23,324 nucleotides of DNA from a virus: positions 1 to 23,324 of IMG/VR virus record IMGVR_UViG_3300021602_000153, one strand, 5' to 3'. The notes beneath the pieces were generated by a model. It had not been told where the DNA came from and did not search any database. It was given only the letters and a program-made list of their open reading frames with translations. The position numbers and the translations under genes are program-made. Positions 3-11,827 of this stretch are shown piece by piece. Numbering within the stretch: the stretch's first letter is position 1; each line of letters opens with the position of its first letter.

Positions 3-1556
3 GGTGCGGTTAATACACTACCGGAGATTGATGGCGTCAATCGAAGACTACCGTTGGTGGTTAACGTTAACGGAATTCTTTACCCATCACTGGCCATGGA
101 AATATTACGTGTTGCTGCTGGTGATACTACATTCCAAGTTAAGCTAAGTGAACTGGGGGTGGATAAGATGCGTATCAAAAAGTTCGGCCCCATTACCACG
201 GACCACTTGGGTCGTATTTGGATTGATTGGAGTCAAAAACCTATTAACATTAGCATTATGGATTTACCTGAAAATCTAAATGGTGCCATTGTTATAGTTG
301 GGCCAGCCGCTGCTGGCATCAGTAATCCGGTGCCCACTGCGGTAGGCGCCCAGTTTCCACATTACGTGCAGGCAGTTGTAGCTGGTACTTTACTAAACAA
401 AATTAATATCACTCGCCCGGATTTTGCAGATGGTGCAGAAATCTTGACATTAGTGATACTGAGCGTTATACTATTATTACTATCGAGGTGGACTTATGTT
501 GGAATTCTTGCTAGCGTTATTGTGCTTGGGGGCTGTGTTTACGGCAGCAGTTATCTTTATGATAATTATCGTTGGCTTTTGGATATCACTGGCATCGTTG
601 CTGGTCTTGTTATTGTTCTTTTCCATGCTTATATCGTTAGGTTTGTAGGTGAGTTCCTACAAAAGCAACAGATTAAAAAACAATTCGGCAGTTATCTGTC
701 ACCAGACTTAGTAGCTAAGTTACAACGACAACCAGAATTATTACGTCTAGGTGGAGAAGAACAAGAACTTACAATTATATTTACTGACGTTCGTGGCTTT
801 ACTGCGATATCAGAACATTACGGACGTGATGTGCAGGGTCTTACTAAAATAATGAACCGTTACATGACTGCTATGACTAAGAAGATTTTAGAAAACAATG
901 GAACACTAGACAAATATATCGGAGATGCCCAGATGGCATTTTGGAACGCACCGCTTGATGACGTTAACCACGCTAAGAACGCAGTACGTACAGCATTGCA
1001 AATGATGGAAAGTTTAGATGAATTTAATAAAGAAGTTACAGCAGAAGGTGTTCCAGCTTTTGGTATGGGTTTGGGAATTAATACTGCCACCGTTGTGGTG
1101 GGCAACATGGGCAGTGATCAACGGTTTGACTATACTTGTCTTGGCGACGGTGTTAATTTGGCGTCAAGACTCGAGGGCCAGACTAAGCCGTACGGCGTCA
1201 AAATTATTCTCGGCCCAATAACAGCAGAGCAAGTTAAAGATGAATACTTTGTGCTTGAGCTAGATAAGATTGCGGTAAAGGGCAAGAAAGTTGGCGTTAA
1301 TATCTTCACTGTGCTTGACCTATATCCCGGTGCGCATGGTGAATATGAAATGGGGCGCGGAGATCATGAAGAAATGTTAACAGCATATCGCAATCGAGAA
1401 TTCGAACACGCTATATTTTTATGTGATAGTTTGATAGGCGAATTCGATGGACAGATGGATGCTTACTATGCAATGTGGAAAGATCGCTGTAAAGAAATGA
1501 AGCTGAGTAATCTGCCACACAATTGGGACGGCACATACGTATCAACAAGCAAATAA
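3..1556 (+). CDS. CHASE2-domain class III adenylate cyclase, 5' end outside window
   Basis: Membrane sensor enzyme predicted to make cAMP from ATP. The frame is open from base 3, and the residues before the TTG at 54 (GAVNTLPEIDGVNRR) continue a CHASE2 domain, so the true start lies upstream of the window. Order: end of the extracytoplasmic CHASE2 sensor, about three membrane segments (bases ~440-640), a short linker, then the cyclase domain. Counting from base 3, the metal-binding aspartates are D262 (FTDVRGFT) and D308 (KYIGDA). Adenine-selecting K304 and D376 are present, as are transition-state N385 and R389 (GDGVNLASR), so the domain looks active as an adenylate rather than guanylate cyclase. 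The last ~120 residues form a tail that recurs as a separate gene at 8290-8643. In bacteria CHASE2 cyclases often sit beside FecR-domain genes, and one lies at 5022-6140 here. The signal sensed is unknown. Confidence 0.9.
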   Translation, partial: GAVNTLPEIDGVNRRLPLVVNVNGILYPSLAMEILRVAAGDTTFQVKLSELGVDKMRIKKFGPITTDHLGRIWIDWSQKPINISIMDLPENLNGAIVIVGPAAAGISNPVPTAVGAQFPHYVQAVVAGTLLNKINITRPDFADGAEILTLVILSVILLLLSRWTYVGILASVIVLGGCVYGSSYLYDNYRWLLDITGIVAGLVIVLFHAYIVRFVGEFLQKQQIKKQFGSYLSPDLVAKLQRQPELLRLGGEEQELTIIFTDVRGFTAISEHYGRDVQGLTKIMNRYMTAMTKKILENNGTLDKYIGDAQMAFWNAPLDDVNHAKNAVRTALQMMESLDEFNKEVTAEGVPAFGMGLGINTATVVVGNMGSDQRFDYTCLGDGVNLASRLEGQTKPYGVKIILGPITAEQVKDEYFVLELDKIAVKGKKVGVNIFTVLDLYPGAHGEYEMGRGDHEEMLTAYRNREFEHAIFLCDSLIGEFDGQMDAYYAMWKDRCKEMKLSNLPHNWDGTYVSTSK

Positions 1557-2476: not shown

Positions 2477-2603
2477 TGTACCAGCAAAGGTACACATTCC
2501 GTTCGAAAATCAAGCAGCATGTGAGTATGCTAAAACCAATATGACATATTGGATTAAATTTGAAAATTTTAAGGTAGTAGGCGAATGCAAAAAACAATCC
2601 TGA
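2430..2603 (+). CDS. Small hydrophobic-leader protein with two cysteines, 57 aa
   Basis: Unrecognised small gene overlapping its neighbours in a different frame. The protein begins MWILLLIAVHINN, a short hydrophobic stretch that could be a membrane anchor or signal, followed by a polar part with C31 and C53 (FENQAACEYAK and VVGECKKQS). A strong ribosome site, AGGAG, sits 7 bases before its ATG, inside the 3' end of the phosphoesterase gene. Its stop lies 19 bases inside the glycosyltransferase gene, so the three genes look translationally coupled. The layout of a hydrophobic start, an aromatic patch and two spaced cysteines resembles small proteins I know from aquatic phages, but I cannot name a family. 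It is short, and the evidence is the ribosome site plus exact filling of the gap between two genes. Confidence 0.6.
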   Translation: MWILLLIAVHINNPNDVPAKVHIPFENQAACEYAKTNMTYWIKFENFKVVGECKKQS

Positions 2604-3592
2604 TAGTAACAGATAATTTACCGGAGCAGATTAATGGCGTGGTTACGACCTACAAAAATATTGAGGCTTATGCGATTCGGGACAACTATCGTGTTGTATA
2701 TCTTGATCCCGGGCGGTTCCGCTATGTTGATTGCCCTGGCTACAACCAAGTCAAGATTGCCTTTCCGAGGAAGGTGGGCAAGATACTTGAGGAGATCAAT
2801 CCGGATCATATCCACATCGCCACGGAGGGTCCTGTTGGTTTGTGTGTTAGACAATATCTTGACAAACACAATTATAGGTACAATACTGCTTATCATACTA
2901 AGTTTCCGGAAGGACTTAGAAAACTTTTTGGAATACCTGAAGCCCTTACTTGGCCTTTAATAAGATGGTTTCATAAACATAGCGGTAAAGTATTGACCAC
3001 TACGGAAAGCATGGTAGAAGAATTACGAGCCCATGGATTTGATGGTGAACTAGTGTCTTGGACTCGTGGGGTTGATCGTGAGATTTTTAATCCAAGCAGA
3101 AGAATAAGGGCCAACGAACAAACAGTATTGGTGTGTGTTGCCAGGGTGAGTAAAGAAAAGAATCTTGAAGATTTCTTTAAATTGGACTTTCCTAATTGTC
3201 GTAAGATAATGGTGGGAGACGGGCCTATGTTGTCAACCTATAAGAAGCAATATCCCGAAGTAGAGTTTGTAGGTTTAAAAACAGGAGCAGAGTTGGCTGA
3301 ATACTATGCTAATGCTGATGTATTTGTATTTCCAAGTCAGTGGGAAACATTTGGTATTGTTATGATAGAAGCTATGGCATGTGGAACTCCTGTTGCTGCT
3401 TATCCATGCCAAGGTCCAAAAGATGTTATTGATCAAGGCATAACAGGCTACATGGATGAATCATTATCTACTGCTACATATCGTTGTCTAGGTTTGAGTA
3501 GGGATCGGGTAGCAGTAGGAAGTCAGCGTTGGAGCTGGGAATATGCCTGGGAAATATTTAGGGCACATCTTGTTCCTGCAAAAATGGACTAA
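2585..3592 (+). CDS. GT4-family glycosyltransferase
   Basis: Predicted retaining GT-B glycosyltransferase that moves a sugar from a nucleotide-sugar donor to a lipid or glycan acceptor. The N-terminal half opens with ILIVTDNLPEQINGVV, the acceptor-side loop typical of GT4 enzymes. The C-terminal half has the VCVARVSKEKNLE strand, the VGDGP turn and the donor-site signature ending in ETFGIVMIEAMACGTPVAA, which contains the E-x7-E pair. At 335 aa it is a little short for the family but both Rossmann halves are present. It follows the LpxH-like gene, a pairing seen in bacterial glycolipid clusters. Bases ~2700-2820 are visibly richer in G+C than the rest of the gene. The stop overlaps the end of the convergent gene at 3589 by 4 bases, so no terminator separates them. 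Confidence 0.85.
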   Translation: MQKTILIVTDNLPEQINGVVTTYKNIEAYAIRDNYRVVYLDPGRFRYVDCPGYNQVKIAFPRKVGKILEEINPDHIHIATEGPVGLCVRQYLDKHNYRYNTAYHTKFPEGLRKLFGIPEALTWPLIRWFHKHSGKVLTTTESMVEELRAHGFDGELVSWTRGVDREIFNPSRRIRANEQTVLVCVARVSKEKNLEDFFKLDFPNCRKIMVGDGPMLSTYKKQYPEVEFVGLKTGAELAEYYANADVFVFPSQWETFGIVMIEAMACGTPVAAYPCQGPKDVIDQGITGYMDESLSTATYRCLGLSRDRVAVGSQRWSWEYAWEIFRAHLVPAKMD

Positions 3593-3900: not shown

Positions 3901-4079
3901 TATTCATATCCTCTTACAAATTTTTCTATAGGGTCCAGTTTAACTAATTGTCGCTTGCCGTCAATGTCAGTAAACTTAAACAAGTCACCCTCTTTCCATC
4001 CTATTGTATGAACATCAAGTTCTTCGTCTAAGATAATTTTGTCGTCACTTAAATCCCAAGTGTAGTCATAGTATAACAT
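3900..4079 (-). CDS. Hypothetical 59-aa acidic protein
   Basis: Small gene between two holin-like genes, joined to both by one-base TAATG overlaps, which strongly supports it as real. The protein starts MLYYDYTWDLSDDKI and ends VKLDPIEKFVRGYE. It is acidic with several aromatic residues, has no membrane segment or cysteine, and its alternating pattern (GDLFKFTDIDGKRQLVKLD) suggests a small beta-barrel or beta-sandwich. I do not recognise the family. Its position suggests expression with, and possibly a partner role for, the flanking membrane proteins. Confidence 0.75.
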   Translation of the reverse strand: MLYYDYTWDLSDDKIILDEELDVHTIGWKEGDLFKFTDIDGKRQLVKLDPIEKFVRGYE

Positions 4080-4360
4080 TAGTCTCTCCTAGCGTCTGAC
4101 TTACCATCGGCACGAGCAATACGATCTACGTCTGGTTTTAATCCTAGCGCATTTGATACTACTGAGTCTATGCGTATAACATCGTGATTCATTGTCTTAA
4201 CACGATTGTCTAATGCTGTAATGATACCGGCCATGCCCTTAACAGCTGACAATACTCCGGCTAGTAATAGTTTTATAGTAAGATATACAAAGTATCCACC
4301 TGCTATAGCAGCAGCAATAGGGAATCCTAGGTCACTTATAAGTTTGAATATTTCATTCAT
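4079..4360 (-). CDS. Small holin-like membrane protein
   Basis: A 93-aa protein with a membrane-buried N-terminal part (residues ~12-45, GFPIAAAIAGGYFVYLTIKL onward) and a C-terminal amphipathic helix with the pattern ALDNRVKTMNHDVIRID, ending in a charged tail. It is a paralogue of the protein at 3589-3900. This arrangement is familiar from small proteins of marine and freshwater T4-like phages, sometimes grouped with holins, but no biochemical role is established from sequence. It is the first gene of a three-gene block. A ribosome site (AGGAA) lies just before the ATG, and a CTAAATA motif lies 28 bases upstream of it (4389-4395), matching a phage late-promoter geometry. Confidence 0.8.
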   Translation of the reverse strand: MNEIFKLISDLGFPIAAAIAGGYFVYLTIKLLLAGVLSAVKGMAGIITALDNRVKTMNHDVIRIDSVVSNALGLKPDVDRIARADGKSDARRD

Positions 4361-4401: not shown

Positions 4402-5025
4402 TTAATTCCTAACGTAACTGTAACTCCCACAAGTCGTGCATTGAATCGCCATCGATCCTGTATTCGCTTGCGTGGGGTTGGTTTGCTGTATTGTCACTGT
4501 AGCACCAGCTGTGCCATTTAATCCAAGAGAAAAACTTTTATCTCCAGATCCAGATTGCGTAGAGTTAATCGTATTGCCGCTGTTAACAGTACCAGATTGG
4601 CCTGTTATGTTTAATGTATGATTGCCGGTACCGGCTTGATTCGCAGTTATAGAATTTGCATTGCCCACTAGATTTTGTATTGATGTTGTATGATTGCCAA
4701 CTCCATCTTGAAATAGTATTACACTATTACTATATCCATTGGGTATCTCAACTGCGGCTTTTTTATCACCTGTGCCCTGCTGTGTAATTCTCACATAGTT
4801 GGCATCACTGCCAGCAGTAGTTCCGGTAGTGGGAAGGTTGGCATTTACCCAAGTTTCAGGGGGTAAGTTTGCACCTATCGCAATTCGAGCATAATGATTG
4901 CCATCTGATTGTGTAATGTTAATGGAGTTATTATCCCCCACTTGATCTATGTAGACATTGGGATTCCACTGAGTACTTTGTGCCCAGACGGTAAATGGAA
5001 ACAATAATAGTAAAAGTAATTTCAT
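4402..5025 (-). CDS. Secreted curlin-repeat (CsgA/CsgB-like) protein 2
   Basis: Predicted substrate of the CsgG pore that could assemble into extracellular amyloid. A signal peptide (MKLLLLLLFPFTVWA, cleavage after A15) is followed by YIDQVGDNNSINITQ and then imperfect curlin-type units built on Asn, Gln, Gly, Ser and Thr, such as ITQQGTGD, NQAGTGNHTLNITGQSG and STQSGSGDKS. These keep the Q-x-G-x-x-N spacing of curlin repeats. The C-terminus is unusual: CTTCG gives a CxxC pair at residues 196 and 199, then SYSYVRN. At 207 aa it is longer than E. coli CsgA (151 aa). The ATG overlaps the FecR stop as ATGA, so the two are coupled. Whether it acts as fibre subunit or nucleator cannot be decided; the distinct tail would fit a CsgB-like role. 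Confidence 0.8.
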   Translation of the reverse strand: MKLLLLLLFPFTVWAQSTQWNPNVYIDQVGDNNSINITQSDGNHYARIAIGANLPPETWVNANLPTTGTTAGSDANYVRITQQGTGDKKAAVEIPNGYSNSVILFQDGVGNHTTSIQNLVGNANSITANQAGTGNHTLNITGQSGTVNSGNTINSTQSGSGDKSFSLGLNGTAGATVTIQQTNPTQANTGSMAIQCTTCGSYSYVRN

Positions 5026-6140
5026 TTTTGCACAATATTAATAACTGTATTGCCACCTGAATTAATACGATTACGTATCTCAACTGATCCTTGTATTTGT
5101 GTTAACACACTATTTTGTCGAGTAGGGGTTGTCACACATTGTTTATTTCCGCCATCATCACGACATAGAGTGACAACGGGTTCGTCAAGTGCTACTGTAA
5201 CACCAGATGTAGGAACATAGTCTGGTAATAACTTAGGAGCACCTGATATAGGCTTTAATAAGTTAGCTGTTTGCGCTGATAATTGTGCGTTAACTATGTC
5301 CAATAAGTTAACTAAAAAATCTTGTTCCAATAAGTTTTGGCTGAGTCGGTCCTTGAACACTTCTGCTTGTGCTATATCAATAGCGTTGTTTAGTCCTTCT
5401 GCCTTGAGAAAATCTACATCTAATGCGCCTAACTTTAACGAACCCTTTGCATTTTTATCTTCTTGCAATTCTTTCGGAGGATTAACGATTAACATATTGC
5501 TAATTTGATCTTCTGTTAATTTAAGTATGACAGGAGGTCTAGGTTTAAAATCTCTACTGTCTACTTTGGTTGCTTGAAATGGTTTGTTCATTACGATAAA
5601 TCCTACTTCTGTAGTAACTGATATTTCGCCTGTCTTACAATCACGTTCTACGTCACGCCATCCAAATGGACAGCTTGGTAATAGAATAATAGTGCTTCGA
5701 CCAAACTCATCTACCGTGGCACTAAAATCTGTTCCACGAACACCAATGGTGGCAACCGGAGTATTAACTGACACTGATTGCGGATTGTTCTTGGCAATTT
5801 GCCCACTGGCATAACGTACTGTGCCGTGTGCTACATTAACAGCTAACTTACCACCCTTGGTAGTAGCAGGGTCATATACAAAGTCATCTATAACTAAACG
5901 ACTATTTTCGTTTACCAGTACCTTTGTATCATCATCAAAGGTTATTCCCACTTTGCCCTGGGTTGTCCGAACCGCATCTTCCATCTCCACTTTTGTCCCC
6001 TTCTTCCCTTCCAGATTTTCCTTCTTGCGTTGTATATTTGGAACTGTGTTGGTAGTTTCTGTGACTGTCCCTATCGCGGCGTCGGATTTCTGCGATGTAC
6101 TCACTAAGCAAACCAATAGTACGACCATCCATAATTTCAT
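5022..6140 (-). CDS. Secreted FecR-domain protein
   Basis: Predicted periplasmic or exported protein of 372 aa. A signal peptide (MKLWMVVLLVCLVSTSQKSDA) is followed by a FecR domain at about residues 55-140: VRTTQGKVGITFDDDTKV, then a beta-rich segment and the hallmark NTPVATIGVRGTDF. The rest is a long helical and then beta-rich C-terminal part with no family I know. The last residues, NSGGNTVINIVQK, look like half a curlin repeat. FecR proteins usually work as periplasmic partners in signalling, and in bacteria they often accompany CHASE2 cyclases; one is at 3-1556. I chose the ATG at 6140 over the GTG at 6143 because GGAGG sits 4 bases before the ATG and only 1 base before the GTG. Its stop overlaps the next curlin gene. 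Confidence 0.85.
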   Translation of the reverse strand: MKLWMVVLLVCLVSTSQKSDAAIGTVTETTNTVPNIQRKKENLEGKKGTKVEMEDAVRTTQGKVGITFDDDTKVLVNENSRLVIDDFVYDPATTKGGKLAVNVAHGTVRYASGQIAKNNPQSVSVNTPVATIGVRGTDFSATVDEFGRSTIILLPSCPFGWRDVERDCKTGEISVTTEVGFIVMNKPFQATKVDSRDFKPRPPVILKLTEDQISNMLIVNPPKELQEDKNAKGSLKLGALDVDFLKAEGLNNAIDIAQAEVFKDRLSQNLLEQDFLVNLLDIVNAQLSAQTANLLKPISGAPKLLPDYVPTSGVTVALDEPVVTLCRDDGGNKQCVTTPTRQNSVLTQIQGSVEIRNRINSGGNTVINIVQK

Positions 6141-6152
6141 CACTCCTCCGAC

Positions 6153-6944
6153 TTATCTTGTATTGCTATTAACGGTAAATGTATTAGTGCTACCAACAGA
6201 CTTAATGTTTATAATACTGTCTGAACTAGTGCCACCCTGTGTGATGCTGGTTGTATTGCCTGATCCATTATAGTCTAATTTAACAGAATGTCCATTAGTT
6301 GCACCACCGCTTTGTGTGATTCCGGTAGTATTACTAGCACCAACAGTAGTGATATCAACGGTACCCTTATCGCCAGTCATGTTAAGTGTTGTGCTATTGC
6401 CACCACCACCTGTTTGACTAATTGTAGTGAGTGTAGAGTTAGCGTTAACCGTGGCAATTAAACTATTGTTTGCCCCTCCCGAGGTAACAGCAGTAAGACT
6501 GTTCCCAGACCCTAACACGTTAACATTAGCATTGGCTGTGTTGCCAGTTTGATTAATACTGATATAATTGCTTTCGCTAACTCCAGATCCAGAATTATTA
6601 CTGTTAATGACAGCAGTGGCGTTGTTACCAGTTACACCGTATATAACGGTAGGATTATTCATGCCATTACCGGTAGTAGTTTTTACACCCAGGCTCAGCA
6701 TATTGCCACTACCAATTTGATTGATGGTAATTTGATTGTTGTCTCCATAGATAGTACTGGGAGTACTATTACCTGACCCTATTCCCTGTATACCACGGAC
6801 AACGTTGCCTGCGCCGTCTTGCGTTATATTGATGGTAGCGTTGTCTCCGCTTTGATCAATATAGATACTATTGTCGGCTGCGATTGATAAACTAGCAAAT
6901 CCGATTAGTAGTAATGCCAATATTTTTTTTATTATTGTTGTCAT
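6153..6944 (-). CDS. Secreted curlin-repeat (CsgA-like) protein 1
   Basis: Predicted main curli-like amyloid subunit, 263 aa. A signal peptide (cleavage near SIA/AD, residues 22-23) is followed by YIDQSGDNATINITQDG, nearly the same opening as the second curlin at 4402-5025. About ten imperfect repeats follow with the curlin pattern of Gln/Asn and Gly spaced by short beta strands: ITINQIGSGNML, ISINQTGNTANANV, TTISQTGGGGNSTTL, TGITQSGGATNGHSV and TSITQGGTSSDSIINI. The mature protein is almost all Gly, Ser, Thr, Asn, Ile and Val with very few charges, as expected of functional amyloids. It follows csgG by 27 bases, with a ribosome site (AAGGAAG) and a small hairpin in the gap. Confidence 0.85.
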   Translation of the reverse strand: MTTIIKKILALLLIGFASLSIAADNSIYIDQSGDNATINITQDGAGNVVRGIQGIGSGNSTPSTIYGDNNQITINQIGSGNMLSLGVKTTTGNGMNNPTVIYGVTGNNATAVINSNNSGSGVSESNYISINQTGNTANANVNVLGSGNSLTAVTSGGANNSLIATVNANSTLTTISQTGGGGNSTTLNMTGDKGTVDITTVGASNTTGITQSGGATNGHSVKLDYNGSGNTTSITQGGTSSDSIINIKSVGSTNTFTVNSNTR

Positions 6945-6971: not shown

Positions 6972-7766
6972 TTATTGGGTTGGAGTTTCCTTAAAATCCC
7001 AAACTCCTCTTCGTTGACCTTCTTTAATCAACTCCACTACCGATGCTTCTATAGTGGTTTTAACTGCCAATGTTCCCGGCTCGTTAATCGTTAGACCTGA
7101 TTCGGCCTCAAATGCTTGTGTTCCATTATCTAGAAACTTTAAGACGGCTATACTATCTGATGTGCTATATACTGTTTTAGTAACTGTTACTGCCATCAAT
7201 ACCTTACCTGTATTAACACTTATAGCCCGTAGACTTATAGTAACAATGTCTTTACTATATTGAGTTTGTGGTCCAATGCCTAACCACCTAAACGCAGATC
7301 CACCAGACTCAGTGCTACTATCATATCCTATAATTCCACCTTCTATCAGCATACCAGCAAACATTAATGGCATTAATGGTTTAGCTTCTTTACCTTCATA
7401 CGATTCTCTCATTTGTCGTATTAGCTGTCGTTCACGAGTAAGTCCATCCAATGCCACCCGTTCTACTACCTCAAACCATCTCCCATTTCCTACATCTTGT
7501 AGGGCTTTAATTAGGAATGTGACACCACCTTGTGTTACAGCATTACTTAAACTGGCAATACCAGGAGTGGGTTTACGTTGTCCAGTTTGGTCAGCGAATG
7601 CGTATACAGCCACGACAACAGGTCTTGGATTAGCAGGAGGTGATATTGTATCAAACTCTTTTTGCATTTTATTCACAGCTACCTCTGGTTTATATTCCTT
7701 TCCCATTTTCTGTGAAATAGCACAACCTGACAATAACATGACTAATAGTAAGGCTAATAATTTCAT
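6972..7766 (-). CDS. csgG: CsgG, outer-membrane curli secretion pore lipoprotein
   Basis: Predicted nonameric outer-membrane channel for export of curlin subunits (type VIII secretion). The lipoprotein signal ends in LLSGC, so C15 would be lipidated. Family landmarks align along the whole length with E. coli CsgG: VVVAVYAFADQTGQRKP, an NGRWFEVVER segment, RERQLIR, the IEGGIIGYDS strand, the GSAFRWLGIG hairpin, the TQY and VSLRAISVNTGKVL strands, and a C-terminal GQRRGVWDF. It has 264 residues against 277 in E. coli. At the constriction loop, E. coli KPYPASNF is replaced by KPTPGIASL, so the Tyr and Phe of the eyelet appear to be Thr and Leu. The start codon overlaps the CsgF stop as ATGA, as expected for stoichiometric pore partners. 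Confidence 0.95.
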   Translation of the reverse strand: MKLLALLLVMLLSGCAISQKMGKEYKPEVAVNKMQKEFDTISPPANPRPVVVAVYAFADQTGQRKPTPGIASLSNAVTQGGVTFLIKALQDVGNGRWFEVVERVALDGLTRERQLIRQMRESYEGKEAKPLMPLMFAGMLIEGGIIGYDSSTESGGSAFRWLGIGPQTQYSKDIVTISLRAISVNTGKVLMAVTVTKTVYSTSDSIAVLKFLDNGTQAFEAESGLTINEPGTLAVKTTIEASVVELIKEGQRRGVWDFKETPTQ

Positions 7767-8227
7767 GGGCTAGATACTGGAAATTGAAATGACCCTAGTG
7801 GTATAGTCACACTAGTAGTGTTGCCCGTAGTATCAGTAACCTGCATATTAATATTGCTACCATCTTTGCTCCAAAAGATACTGTTGCCCTCAAAGTTTAA
7901 TGTACCTTGATTTGTGCCGCCATTGGCAAACATAGCAGTGGCCAAGTTTTGACTAATCTGTGCGTAGATCCGACTTTCTAAATTATTAAGAAATTTGGCA
8001 ATATTAGTGCTCTGCTTGTCTGCCTTTTCTTTATCTAGGGCAGCTTGTATATCTTTCTTAACCTGAGCTTGACGAGTAAATTCTTGGTTCTCTATAGTCA
8101 GGACATGGGCACTATAGCCGTTTCCAGTAAAACTGGGTGACTTAAACTGATAGTCTGCTATCGGGGTCGCGACGGCTTGCAAGGAGATCGCGGTAAAACA
8201 TAGCAGAGTTGTAATTATTTTTATCAT
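7763..8227 (-). CDS. csgF: CsgF, curli secretion accessory protein
   Basis: Predicted exported partner of CsgG; in E. coli CsgF plugs into the CsgG barrel and places the nucleator at the cell surface. A signal peptide ends near AVA/TP (residue 20). The mature start YQFKSPSFTGNGYS matches the FQFRNPNFGGNP segment of E. coli CsgF, which enters the pore. A helix (FLNNLESRIYAQISQNLATAMF) and a beta end (SNINMQVTDTTGNTTSVTI, compare QLQLNVTDRKTGQTSTIQV) complete the fold. I chose the ATG at 8227, not 8317, because AGGAG lies 7 bases before it and the signal peptide starts exactly there; the longer version would add 30 residues unlike a leader. Length is 154 aa, close to the family's ~138. It overlaps csgG by 4 bases. 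Confidence 0.9.
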   Translation of the reverse strand: MIKIITTLLCFTAISLQAVATPIADYQFKSPSFTGNGYSAHVLTIENQEFTRQAQVKKDIQAALDKEKADKQSTNIAKFLNNLESRIYAQISQNLATAMFANGGTNQGTLNFEGNSIFWSKDGSNINMQVTDTTGNTTSVTIPLGSFQFPVSSP

Positions 8228-8289: not shown

Positions 8290-8643
8290 CTAACCCTTGG
8301 GTACAATGCCAGTCCAAGCGGTATCTGGTTCGGATTCGATATACCCAAGTATTCGTGTTCGTAACACTTCGTAGAATGAATCAATTTGTTTGCCCCAAGA
8401 ACCCATTAGGGTATCAATTGCTGTAATACAAAAATGCCAATTTCTTTTACGATAATTATCCATTAAATCTTGGTGTAACTTTGTATAAACTTCTACTTTG
8501 GCAAACTCCGTTAATGGTAAGTTTTCCACCACACTATATGCGGTAATGGGATTGCTACTACGTATGGTTACTGTATCTAGTTCAAGAACTATATATTTTT
8601 CTTGTAGTTTTGATACCTCAGCGGTGCCGAAAATTATATTCAA
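8290..8643 (-). CDS. Stand-alone cyclase C-terminal tail protein
   Basis: A 117-aa protein that aligns from end to end with the last ~120 residues of the CHASE2 cyclase at 3-1556 and lacks the catalytic part. Shared points: IIxG at the start, the YxVLELD strand (YIVLELDTV against YFVLELDKI), a YRxR motif in the middle, LxGxxxxQxDxxY, and a final helix before a Trp-containing end. The first residues match the beta strand that closes the cyclase fold, so this looks like a domain cut at a sensible boundary. It starts at TTG with AGGAG 7 bases before, so it looks actively translated rather than a dead fragment. It is the first gene of the curli operon. It may bind or compete with the cyclase tail or a shared partner; this is inference. 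Confidence 0.75.
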   Translation of the reverse strand: MNIIFGTAEVSKLQEKYIVLELDTVTIRSSNPITAYSVVENLPLTEFAKVEVYTKLHQDLMDNYRKRNWHFCITAIDTLMGSWGKQIDSFYEVLRTRILGYIESEPDTAWTGIVPKG

Positions 8644-8705: not shown

Positions 8706-9497
8706 ATGAATTTTAATTTTGACCTTATTAGTGATTTACATAGGGAAACCTGGCCTAATTTTGATTGGACCGGACAACCAACTGCACAGTATTGCATTGT
8801 AGCAGGTGATATCGCTAGAGATAGATCCCTTGTTGTAGATACTTTGAAACACCTTAGTGAAGTTTATACCGGGGTCTTTTATATTGACGGAAACGACGAG
8901 CATAAAGACCATGCGGAAAACTTGAATCGTAGCTACGCTGAATTAGCTGATCTTATTGGCCCTATGAAGAATGTGGTATATATGCAGGATAATGTGGTTG
9001 TTATGAACGGTGTCGCCATTTTGGCCACTAATGGATGGTGGAGTTATGACTTCGACCCTAACTTATCAGTAGACCAATCATTATTCTGGGTTCAACAGAA
9101 GGATGGAATTAGTCAGCAGGCTGCAATTAATATTAATGGAACAGCATATCGAGATGCAGGGTATTTGGTTAACAGCGTTTCTAAATTACAAACTTATAAT
9201 GATGTAAAATCTATAATTATCGTCACACATACAGTACCAACTCCAGAAATTATACAACATGATCTAGAACTAAAAGATACATGGCGATATAATTCCATGG
9301 GAAACAATTACGTAAATGCTGCTCTTGATTCAGATACTGAACGAAAAATTAAACTATGGTGTTTTGGCCATTATCATAGACCGGTAGATACAGTAATAGA
9401 TAGGGTTAGATATGTCAGTAATCCTCGCGGACGAGGAAATACTGAATATTCTCAATTTGCATACTACCCCAAAAGGATATCAGTTCCGGTTAATTAG
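8706..9497 (+). CDS. Calcineurin-like metallophosphoesterase
   Basis: Predicted cytosolic metal-dependent phosphoesterase of 263 aa; the substrate could be a nucleotide, nucleic acid or phosphoprotein. Signature motifs appear in order: LISDLHRE (residues ~7-14), VAGDIARD (~32-39), DGNDEHK (the GNH[DE] position, here GNDEH, near 60), VTHTVP (~178) and FGHYHRP (~222). The Asn-Asp-Glu-His order in the third motif is a slight departure from the usual Asn-His. It is unlike the LpxH-like enzyme at 1676-2476 and is not its copy. It stands alone on the plus strand, divergent from the curli operon and overlapping the end of clpS by 8 bases. A CTAAATA motif lies 30 bases upstream. Confidence 0.8.
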   Translation: MNFNFDLISDLHRETWPNFDWTGQPTAQYCIVAGDIARDRSLVVDTLKHLSEVYTGVFYIDGNDEHKDHAENLNRSYAELADLIGPMKNVVYMQDNVVVMNGVAILATNGWWSYDFDPNLSVDQSLFWVQQKDGISQQAAININGTAYRDAGYLVNSVSKLQTYNDVKSIIIVTHTVPTPEIIQHDLELKDTWRYNSMGNNYVNAALDSDTERKIKLWCFGHYHRPVDTVIDRVRYVSNPRGRGNTEYSQFAYYPKRISVPVN

Positions 9498-9798
9498 ATT
9501 CCGGTTCTATTTGAATCTTCAGTGGCATATTTACTGAACGTGCAGCCATTGAAACCTCAATTCCTTTTTGTTCTGCGATTTCATAAGGTAACACAGCTAC
9601 GACTGCGGAGCCGATTTCATGTATATCTTGTGTAATTTTTACAGCAGTATCTGGCGTATAATTAAAGAAGTTCATTAATGATTCAACTACGAATTCCATT
9701 GTTGTTCCGTCGTCATTTAAATAGATAACTTTAAACAGTGGAGGCTCTTTAATTTCCTGATTAACATCAGGTCTTGTGATTACATCTGCTTGTGACAT
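9490..9798 (-). CDS. clpS: ClpS, N-degron adaptor for Clp protease
   Basis: Predicted adaptor that delivers proteins with N-terminal Phe, Leu, Tyr or Trp to ClpAP. At 102 aa it matches the bacterial protein in length. The binding pocket is intact: N28-D29-D30 in VIYLNDDGTTMEF, gatekeeper M34, and H60 in DIHEIGSAVVAVL. The flexible N-terminal tail needed to engage ClpA is also present (residues 1-20). A working adaptor encoded by a phage would redirect the host's ClpAP, since no clpA or clpP is seen here. It is the last gene of the protein quality-control cluster (ClpX, bS21, Hsp20, ClpS), with its own leader carrying a TAAATA motif and a hairpin. Confidence 0.9.
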   Translation of the reverse strand: MSQADVITRPDVNQEIKEPPLFKVIYLNDDGTTMEFVVESLMNFFNYTPDTAVKITQDIHEIGSAVVAVLPYEIAEQKGIEVSMAARSVNMPLKIQIEPESN

Positions 9799-9818
9799 AC
9801 TAGTTCCTTAAGTTTAGC

Positions 9819-9838
9819 ACAGGGCGTAATTGCCCTGT
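9819..9838 (-). repeat. GC-rich hairpin in the clpS leader
   Basis: ACAGGGC and GCCCTGT form a perfect 7-base stem with a 6-base loop, lying between the end of hsp20 and the clpS ribosome site. It could end hsp20 transcripts or structure the clpS leader. No T-run follows on either strand. Confidence 0.4.
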
Positions 9839-9842
9839 ACTG

Positions 9843-9848
9843 TATTTA
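9843..9848 (-). promoter_or_regulatory. Candidate late promoter before clpS
   Basis: On the minus strand the sequence reads AGTAAATACAG, 44 bases upstream of the clpS ATG. It keeps the TAAATAC core of other candidate late promoters here but has AG rather than AC before it. Confidence 0.35.
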
Positions 9849-9858
9849 CTATATTTTA

Positions 9859-10305
9859 CTACGATTCGTATGCAATAAAAATAGTTTTAGGCTGAAGTGC
9901 TTCGGGAATATTACGCTCTAACCGTACAGTTAAAATGCCATTTTTCGACGATGCATTGGTTACTTCAACATAATCAGCTAGACTAAACGTGCGAACAAAA
10001 TTGCGAGCACTAATACCGTTATGCGAATATGTGTAACCTTCAGGAAGTTCTTTGTCCTGCCTTTTGCCAGTAACAATAAGAGTATTGTCCTTGACTTCAA
10101 CATTAACCTCACCCTCACTAAATCCAGCAGTGGCTACTTGAACTTCGAAAGTATCTAATCCGGTTTTAATAATGTTGTATGGGGGATAGTTAGTTCCTTC
10201 GTTACCGTGATGTTCAATTTGATTCAAAATACGACTGAATAATTGATCTACGCCGATAGCGTTGCGAGTGAATGGATTAAAATCCAAAGTGGTGATTTTT
10301 GTCAT
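9859..10305 (-). CDS. Hsp20 / IbpA-like small heat-shock protein
   Basis: Predicted ATP-independent holdase chaperone, 148 aa, with an alpha-crystallin domain at about residues 42-140. Diagnostic points: NYPPYNI before the domain, a central AGFSEGEVNVEV and LIVTGKR, the ISARNFVRTFSLADYVEV stretch shared with IbpA-type proteins, and the closing GILTVRLERNIPE. The C-terminal I-x-I-like motif needed for oligomer assembly is present (TIFIAYES). Small heat-shock proteins are common in T4-like phages of aquatic bacteria, where they may protect folding structural proteins. A good ribosome site (AAAGGAGAAAAC) precedes the ATG. A TAAATAC motif lies 65 bases upstream. Confidence 0.92.
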   Translation of the reverse strand: MTKITTLDFNPFTRNAIGVDQLFSRILNQIEHHGNEGTNYPPYNIIKTGLDTFEVQVATAGFSEGEVNVEVKDNTLIVTGKRQDKELPEGYTYSHNGISARNFVRTFSLADYVEVTNASSKNGILTVRLERNIPEALQPKTIFIAYES

Positions 10306-10370
10306 TGTTTTCTCCTTTAATTAAACGAAGTGACATTGTTAATAGGCCCAACCATCGGCACCTACAACAG

Positions 10371-10376
10371 TATTTA
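10371..10376 (-). promoter_or_regulatory. Candidate late promoter before hsp20
   Basis: On the minus strand ACAATAAATACTG sits 65 bases before the hsp20 ATG, in a 113-base gap that holds no gene. ATAAATA is the closest match in the window to the T4 late consensus TATAAATA. Confidence 0.45.
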
Positions 10377-10418
10377 TTGTACTATAAAATCATTAACTAC
10401 AAATATTATTTGGTAAAA

Positions 10419-10640
10419 TTAGTAGAATTTCTTGGGAAGTTCTTGGGCAGCTAGTCGCTTGCGTGAGCGTGATTTAGCTGCACCTTTCTTACGCTTACGT
10501 TCAGTGGTGGGTTTCTCATATGTTTCCCTGGCTCGTAGTTCGTCCAACAAGCCTGAGTCTTGTATTTTCTTTTTAAATTTCCTAAGTGCCTTTTCCACGT
10601 TTCCGTCATTGACAAATACTGTGTTTCCGTAAAGCTTCAT
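10419..10640 (-). CDS. rpsU: Ribosomal protein bS21
   Basis: Predicted small-subunit ribosomal protein of 73 aa, close to the 71 aa of E. coli bS21. The core [22 protein letters not shown] and [12 protein letters not shown] match the bacterial protein strongly, and the C-terminus is basic. bS21 sits near the anti-Shine-Dalgarno end of 16S rRNA and helps initiation. Phage-encoded bS21 is known from aquatic and very large phages and is thought to replace the host copy in ribosomes to favour phage messages. The ATG overlaps the ClpX stop as ATGA, so the two proteins are made from one message. Confidence 0.95.
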
Positions 10641-11827
10641 TCATTCTCCCTTGCGAGTGTTGCCGGAGTATTTACTAGTTTTGACGTAATTGCCACTGAT
10701 AGTATACTCTGTTTGCGATACTTAGGTAGGTCGAACATATGCGGTAATAGTATGCGTTCTAACTCTGTGTGCAGTCCACGAGCACCTGTTTTAGTTTTAA
10801 GAGTACGTTCTGCTATGAGATTTAGCGAATCTTTTTCAAAATTAAGTTCAACGCCATCTTGGTTAAACAACCACTTATATTGCCCAACGTAATTGTGTTT
10901 AACATCTGTCAATATGCTGATTAATTGGTCTTTGGTCAGACCTTGTAAATTTACTAAGTTACCAAACCTACCAACAAATTCCGGTATCATGCCATATTTG
11001 ACCAAATCATCTGGTGATGCCGCCATATTCTCCAGGGATTCTTCCTTGACAATATCAGCATTAAATCCCATGGTCGTTCCCTGCACTCTACTCTTTACAA
11101 TTTTATCAAGTCCAACAAATGCCCCACCGGAAATGAATAGGATATTAGTAGTATCAATCTCAACAGTGGTATCACCTCGTCGTATACCGGGAGGACTAAT
11201 CTTAACCTTGGTACCTTCGATTAATTTAAGCAAGGCCTGTTGCACACCTTCGCCAGATACGTCCCGGCTGACAGTAGCACTTTCGCTTTTGCGAGCAATT
11301 TTATCTATTTCATCTAAAAAGATAATACCGCGTTGTGTGCGCTCTACGTCCGAGTCAGCATTTTGGTATAATCTTAATATAACAGAGTCAACATCATCAC
11401 CGACATATCCCGCTTCGGTAAGGGTAGTTGCATCGGCTATGGCAAACGGTACGTTCAAATATTGTGATACAGTCTTTACCAACAGGGTTTTACCAGTCCC
11501 GGTGGGCCCAACCATTAATATATTTGCTTTGTCAATTTCGTTTTCAGTATTACTGATACGTTTATAGTGGTTGGTAATAGCCACTGCCAATACTATCTTA
11601 GCGCCGTCTTGACCCACTACGTATTGATCAAGATATTGTTTAATTTCACGGGGGTCTGGTATTTCCATTGTGGTGATGGATTTAGTTGTCCCTTGTTTAT
11701 TTTTTATTAGTTTACCGCAACGTTCGACGCAGTCGCTACAGATAGCAACGTTATCCTGCACGATAAAGGTAGTAACAGCATTCTTATGTTTATTACAGAA
11801 TGAGCAATGGTTAATTTTTTCCAACAC
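10637..11827 (-). CDS. clpX: ClpX, AAA+ unfoldase
   Basis: Predicted hexameric unfoldase, alone or with ClpP. Order: zinc-binding domain with C8, C11, C30 and C33; Walker A GPTGTGKT at 107-114; pore loop GYVG at 140-143; Walker B IIFLDEID at 168-175; pore-2 region [16 protein letters not shown]; and the sensor-2 region [13 protein letters not shown]. The ClpP-contact loop reads MGF at 253-255 in place of IGF, which should still bind ClpP. The RKH substrate loop of E. coli ClpX reads RRG here (~216-218), so tag choice may differ. The 396 aa are slightly fewer than in E. coli (424). Start is GTG at 11827 or TTG at 11824; AGGA lies just upstream. No clpP is seen, so it may pair with host ClpP. 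Confidence 0.95.

Follow-up and report, generated by a model that had tools for sequence, protein, structure and literature searches.

Marine viromes abound in phages that carry a curli module. The whole stretch of DNA analysed here (hereafter the window), an IMG/VR record of 23,324 bases, carries such a module together with a gene for a sensor cyclase, and it raises the question of what this enzyme senses, what its product controls and why a second gene resembling only its C-terminus lies a few kilobases away. The features discussed below are the following, with the basis of each assignment in brackets.

3-1556, + strand: CHASE2-class III nucleotidyl cyclase, residues ~167-683 of ~683 (Pfam, phrog_35576, homologue in contig L002)
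786-1169, + strand: active-site codons of the cyclase, class IIIb K/T pair (alignment to CyaB 3r5g and CyaC 1wc1)
1200-1553, + strand: C-terminal module of the cyclase, last strands and three-helix tail ending WDGxYxxTSK (homologous to ORF 8290-8643)
1676-2476, + strand: metallophosphoesterase downstream of the cyclase, predicted PlcP-like by its pairing with the next gene (conserved pairing)
2585-3592, + strand: GT4 glycosyltransferase, predicted Agt-like by context (pairing; PMC4796936)
3589-3900, - strand: small phrog_18771 protein, one apparent TM helix and a coiled-coil-like tail (55/55 phage cyclase loci)
4079-4360, - strand: second phrog_18771 paralogue (54/55 loci)
4402-5025, - strand: curlin-repeat protein (Pfam)
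5022-6143, - strand: exported FecR-domain protein, conserved C-terminus like one curlin repeat (domain and motif scan)
6153-6944, - strand: curlin-repeat protein (Pfam)
6972-7766, - strand: CsgG outer-membrane pore (6.9e-44)
7763-8227, - strand: CsgF, ATG at 8227 (1.1e-14)
8290-8643, - strand: stand-alone cyclase-tail protein, 117 aa, TTG start, AGGAG upstream (homology to the cyclase C-terminus)
8706-9497, + strand: divergent metallophosphoesterase, mpe2 (adjoins the tail gene in 39/41 loci)
9490-11827, - strand: clpS, hsp20, S21 and clpX, conserved neighbours of the tail gene (synteny)

Architecture and active site of the cyclase

The cyclase ORF is open from the contig edge and encodes 517 aa; its start codon is absent, the contig beginning inside the gene, and about 166 N-terminal residues are cut off. 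A 93% identical relative on a 157-kb phage contig with a T4-type major capsid gene (L002) has a complete ORF of 683 aa with a full CHASE2 domain (4.4e-36) and the cyclase domain, from which it follows that the window begins at about residue 167. The gene order of the window through clpX is repeated in L002, so the layout is real and not an assembly accident, and the reading frame is intact in near-identical relatives of the window phage. The cyclase belongs to a T4-like phage lineage. We did not find a T4-type late promoter, TATAAATA, in the 23,324-base window.

Within the window, the ORF matches Guanylate_cyc (PF00211) at 3.9e-19, with 69.4 bits against a curated cut-off of 21.9, the C-terminal half of CHASE2 (PF05226) at 2.5e-15, above the Pfam cut-off, and phrog_35576 with 617 bits. 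These domains, together with the complete gene in L002, bear out the first-pass annotation, which had recognised a phage-encoded CHASE2 sensor cyclase. It had also placed the catalytic domain behind an extracytoplasmic sensor, and CHASE2 is indeed flanked by TM helices, one on its N-terminal side and others on its C-terminal side; only its C-terminal part lies inside the window, the complete domain being seen in L002. The AlphaFold model of the L002 homologue (pLDDT 88.8) has helices at residues 308-326, 330-355 and 361-394, and in its catalytic part it resembles adenylyl and guanylyl cyclases of solved structure. As shown by the domain matches and the model, the protein is predicted to begin with an N-terminal TM helix, followed by a CHASE2 domain outside the cytoplasm and more TM helices, and then by the complete class IIIb catalytic domain with a helical tail that is conserved.

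The same annotation had described a full active site with a Lys/Asp pair for adenine. By alignment to 3r5g and 1wc1 and by a survey covering 88 phage and 80 bacterial cyclases, we observed that both metal-binding Asp residues (codons 786-788 and 924-926), the base-binding Lys (912-914) and the transition-state Asn and Arg (1155-1157 and 1167-1169) are all present. The Lys/Asp pair, which is of class IIIa type, is not: the specificity position (1134-1136) holds Thr, which places the enzyme in class IIIb. From its sequence, the cyclase probably makes cAMP. A different product, mainly cGMP or a pyrimidine cyclic nucleotide, or a product differing within the phage family, could be imagined since different residues occupy the specificity position (Thr in 75 of the 88 phage cyclases, Asp in 12 and Ser in HTVC008M; Ser in 75 of the 80 bacterial relatives) and since S. 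meliloti CHASE2 cyclases have been classed as AC/GC (PMC13001267). Nevertheless, the Lys is invariant and Thr is the residue found in the ATP-using class IIIb enzymes CyaB and CyaC, and we give this alternative little credence.

The Asp residue goes with an Asn-to-Ser replacement in 11 of the 12 phage cyclases that have it, Melnitz included. This catalytic type stands behind the same CHASE2 sensor in L042, L070, L078, L082, L090, L132, L134, L148, L151 and L156, and its occurrence in several branches suggests that catalytic cassettes are exchanged between phages. In another record (G009, locus L048), we observed tandem cyclase domains at 102020-102550 and 103704-104174, the second ORF having 409 aa.

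In the tree, the phage cyclases group in a single clade (SH-aLRT 100) that excludes the sampled bacterial sequences. A dN/dS of ~0.10 against four relatives, indicating purifying selection, and the presence in IMG/VR of at least 591 candidate relatives argue that the gene is not there by chance.

The curli module and what the cyclase may sense

As the first-pass annotation had noted, FecR and curli genes lie in the same window, namely those for FecR, CsgG, CsgF and two curlin-like proteins. It had proposed examining related phages for co-occurrence, and this association proved to be general: csgF, csgG, curlin and FecR genes accompany the cyclase in 53 of the 55 fetched phage loci in which 8 kb or more upstream of it was available. 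Most of these records are fragments, and the counts drawn from IMG/VR are minimum figures. In cultured Pelagibacter and Methylophilales phages the genes form csgF-csgG-curlin-FecR-curlin-CHASE2 cyclase operons, and the combination of T8SS, FecR and adenylate cyclase has been described in pelagiphages and marine viromes (PMC9599517). In view of these operons, of that report and of the 53 loci, the cyclase is not new in kind, and its combination with curli and FecR is already known. The features that are variant here are the opposite-strand cyclase, the PlcP-like/Agt-like pair downstream of it and the companion tail gene. Indeed, the cyclase is encoded on the strand opposite to the csg operon in both the window and L002, and not at the 3' end of the operon on the same strand, while csgG and cyclase share a strand in 45 of the 55 phage loci.

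The N-terminus of the phage FecR protein looks like a signal peptide, and its C-terminus is conserved and similar to a curlin repeat. When the C-termini were scanned for the curlin motif, the spacing of which was corrected twice ahead of the counts given here, 22 of 64 scored above the 95th percentile of shuffled sequences (3 expected) and 10 above the 99th; no internal segment did so, and most of the best matches lie within 3 residues of the C-terminus. This moderate likeness appears to favour a fibre-associated role of FecR over the iron regulation suggested for it in PMC9599517.

The most constant partners of the cyclase are the two phrog_18771 paralogues (~93-115 aa; 54-55 of the 55 loci), which lie upstream of csgF in most operons; proteins of this type are also encoded at L082 9790-10428 and L083 6900-7462. 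The published description of the module mentions a 'histidine kinase, sometimes two' (PMC9599517). Neither of the two paralogues was found to carry a kinase domain. In most loci, HTVC008M included, such small proteins occupy the site upstream of csgF, and they may be the proteins meant by that description. They also enter into another explanation of the module, in which it would serve lysis or pore gating, as proposed for the CsgGF of Melnitz (PMC9004378): CsgG/F would be a gated outer-membrane pore, the phrog_18771 pair holin-like and the cyclase a timer. The constancy of the pair agrees with it, and 20 residues of one member weakly match a holin family. That match is short as well as weak, however, and curlin-repeat and FecR proteins, needless for a lysis pore, are kept with the pore, so that we consider such a role quite unlikely.

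We then turn to the target of the cyclic nucleotide. A phage-encoded cAMP receptor was considered and rejected, because no protein with a cNMP-binding domain (PF00027) was found in 15 phage records that carry the cyclase; any effector would consequently be a host protein. The closest cellular sequences of the cyclase are mostly alphaproteobacterial, with 31-37% identity. In 22 of 73 bacterial loci a FecR-domain ORF ends at most 500 bp upstream on the same strand, and many loci have no detected FecR neighbour. In one locus (L165) this upstream FecR-domain protein also carries cadherin-like and RTX repeats, in two others (L173, L196) an HlyD adaptor lies upstream of the cyclase, and in two marine Alphaproteobacteria (L194, L203) a fusion of a cNMP-binding domain with HlyD is encoded directly upstream; sequences closely similar to this fusion occur in L199, L210, L212 and L229. 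Such a fusion possibly represents direct cyclic-nucleotide control of type I secretion. Around the 80 bacterial homologues, neither csgG nor csgF was detected at distances of up to 10 kb. These neighbourhoods (FecR, RTX adhesins, HlyD, cNMP-HlyD) point to surface-protein secretion and not to CRP-type catabolite control, and suggest, by gene context, that cAMP from such bacterial cyclases would act locally on the secretion of surface proteins.

On this basis we propose, with a probability of roughly 55%, that the cyclase is the sensor of the phage curli (type VIII secretion) module, reading the status of the fibre or of FecR and signalling by cAMP to a host effector, with the free tail tuning cyclases in trans. 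The CHASE2 domain would monitor the export or assembly of curlin fibres through the exported FecR-domain protein of the module, and the catalytic domain would make cAMP that acts on a cyclic-nucleotide effector of the host. We count against this proposal the opposite strand of the cyclase, the lack of PF00027 proteins, the frequent lack of a FecR neighbour and of csgG/F in bacteria, and the moderate degree of the FecR-curlin likeness.

The first-pass annotation had suggested a broader effect, in which a phage making cAMP could reset the catabolite, biofilm or motility programmes of its host. Such general reprogramming, in which cAMP would flood the host and reset catabolite, biofilm or motility control of the CRP type without involvement of the curli module, is consistent with the complete catalytic site, with an output that would have to pass through a host protein and with the window cyclase being encoded apart from the csg operon and on the opposite strand. 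It accounts poorly for the near-invariant linkage to csg and FecR genes (53/55 loci), and the bacterial neighbourhoods indicate secretion and adhesins instead; this claim was therefore not supported, and we regard it as unlikely. For the sensor of the curli module, the interest of the comparison is that it ties the phage cyclase to a bacterial theme (FecR, adhesin secretion, CHASE2 cyclase, cNMP-binding adaptor) and yields a hypothesis, open to test, on the input and the output of the enzyme.

Downstream of the cyclase, homologues of the metallophosphoesterase and of the GT4 glycosyltransferase are adjacent in 8 of the 9 alphaproteobacterial genomes that have the phosphoesterase (identities of 50-54% and 38-43%, respectively). 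LpxH-type NCBIfam models match the phosphoesterase below cut-off. By sequence and pairing, the two putative enzymes resemble the PlcP-Agt pair of membrane-lipid remodelling; we found no report of such a pair in phages in the literature.

The stand-alone cyclase tail

Between csgF and the divergent mpe2 gene lies a 117-aa ORF that aligns with the last ~117 residues of the cyclase (blastp 2e-12 in a one-sequence comparison; hhalign 99.5%, E 4.7e-23). A cyclase profile finds it through positions 559-677 in 17/17 phage records, with E values of 3e-12 to 3e-18. The ORF begins after the Asn/Arg motif and has no catalytic residues, which excludes catalysis by its product. In the model of this product (pLDDT 89.7) the structural elements follow one another as in cyclase residues 567-683, and in BFVD it matches a phage CHASE2 cyclase (E 1.6e-5), besides two phage proteins that are uncharacterised. 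Against solved folds Foldseek gave no match at E <= 0.001, and the highest VIA Z was 5.5; a DUF943 match at 0.0037 is below cut-off. As judged from these homologies, the ORF is a free-standing copy of the cyclase's C-terminal module, inherited as a gene in its own right. No account of the origin of this family from a signalling enzyme was found in the literature.

IMG/VR holds up to 398 candidate relatives of the tail, some of them perhaps cyclases, of which 80 were fetched. The neighbourhood clpX-S21-hsp20-clpS-mpe2 is kept: clpS and hsp20 adjoin the tail gene in the 80 as far as the flanks reach, including all 41 well-flanked loci, and mpe2 adjoins it in 39 of these. mpe2 is a calcineurin-type phosphoesterase with GNDE replacing GNHE, and a distant homologue in a Vibrio phage is annotated as a cAMP phosphodiesterase; on such resemblance a cyclic-nucleotide role for mpe2 is conceivable.

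The tail family forms one clade (SH-aLRT 100) outside the phage and bacterial cyclase tails, in a tree built on few alignment columns, and dN/dS is 0.08-0.15 in the closest pairs (0.31 in one pair). Single clade, synteny and purifying selection rule out a recent broken copy of the neighbouring cyclase. One could still see in the tail a functionless, decaying remnant of a duplicated cyclase, given its lack of catalytic residues and a shorter C-terminus in L006, L008, L043 and L070. The members share the same start residue and length, though, and together with the common clade, the invariable clpS and hsp20 neighbours, the low omega and the confident fold this makes decay very improbable.

The cyclase and the curli module are also carried by 14 of the 41 well-flanked tail loci, and the PF00211 domain is absent from 13 tail-bearing records of 90-347 kb, which are possibly incomplete. 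A role of the tail with curli only is thereby ruled out. Hundreds of related phages may keep the free tail, many of them without the cyclase. As most of the phages with the free tail have no cyclase, it may act on something other than a phage enzyme. Among 398 Pseudomonadota genomes the tail profile matched 60, nearly always in long, cyclase-sized frames, with two partial matches in frames of 228-241 aa and no free-standing full-length copy; the separate tail gene therefore looks phage-specific. It was not found among the INPHARED phages.

The most likely role of the free tail would be an in-trans tuning of CHASE2-type cyclases, of the phage or of the host, by competition for whatever binds the tail. 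That large T4-like phages use it as such a modulator, kept even without a cyclase, with host CHASE2 cyclases as the target, is a tentative extension of the family's distribution, and we hold it to be possible rather than probable. A free tail in phages without a cyclase nevertheless gives a starting point for asking how the cyclic-nucleotide signalling of hosts may be disturbed by phages.

Comparison with known systems

HTVC008M and Melnitz, both cultured, have csgF, csgG, curlin, FecR, a second curlin and the CHASE2 cyclase in one operon, and their cyclases are 39% and 42% identical, respectively, to that of the window. In contrast to these phages, the window has its cyclase on the opposite strand, followed by the PlcP-like/Agt-like pair, and possesses the stand-alone tail; the two small genes, upstream of csgF in their operons, are at the far end of the operon in the window. 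The Melnitz active site is the Asp/Ser variant, whereas that of the window is Thr/Asn.

The class IIIb enzymes CyaB of P. aeruginosa (3r5g) and CyaC of S. platensis (1wc1) share the catalytic fold (TM-score 0.87-0.90 normalised to target) and the K/T pair. They have regulatory parts of their own, where the phage cyclase has the CHASE2 sensor and the helical tail. The C-terminal tail of class III cyclases and ORF 8290-8643 have the same fold and W-x-G end motif, the latter being a separate gene.

The alphaproteobacterial CHASE2 cyclases (Bradyrhizobium, Rhodospirillales) have the same architecture, C-terminal tail included, often with a FecR-domain gene directly upstream. They differ in having mostly Ser instead of Thr and in being adjoined by adhesins and T1SS adaptors instead of csg genes, and the phage clade is separate from them. 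Finally, CyaD1, CyaD2 and CyaK of S. meliloti, CHASE2 cyclases that raise cAMP on a protein signal via an outer-membrane protein (PMC13001267), may be regarded as functional counterparts, likened by description and not by alignment, and by analogy they provide a precedent for a relay from the envelope to a CHASE2 cyclase.
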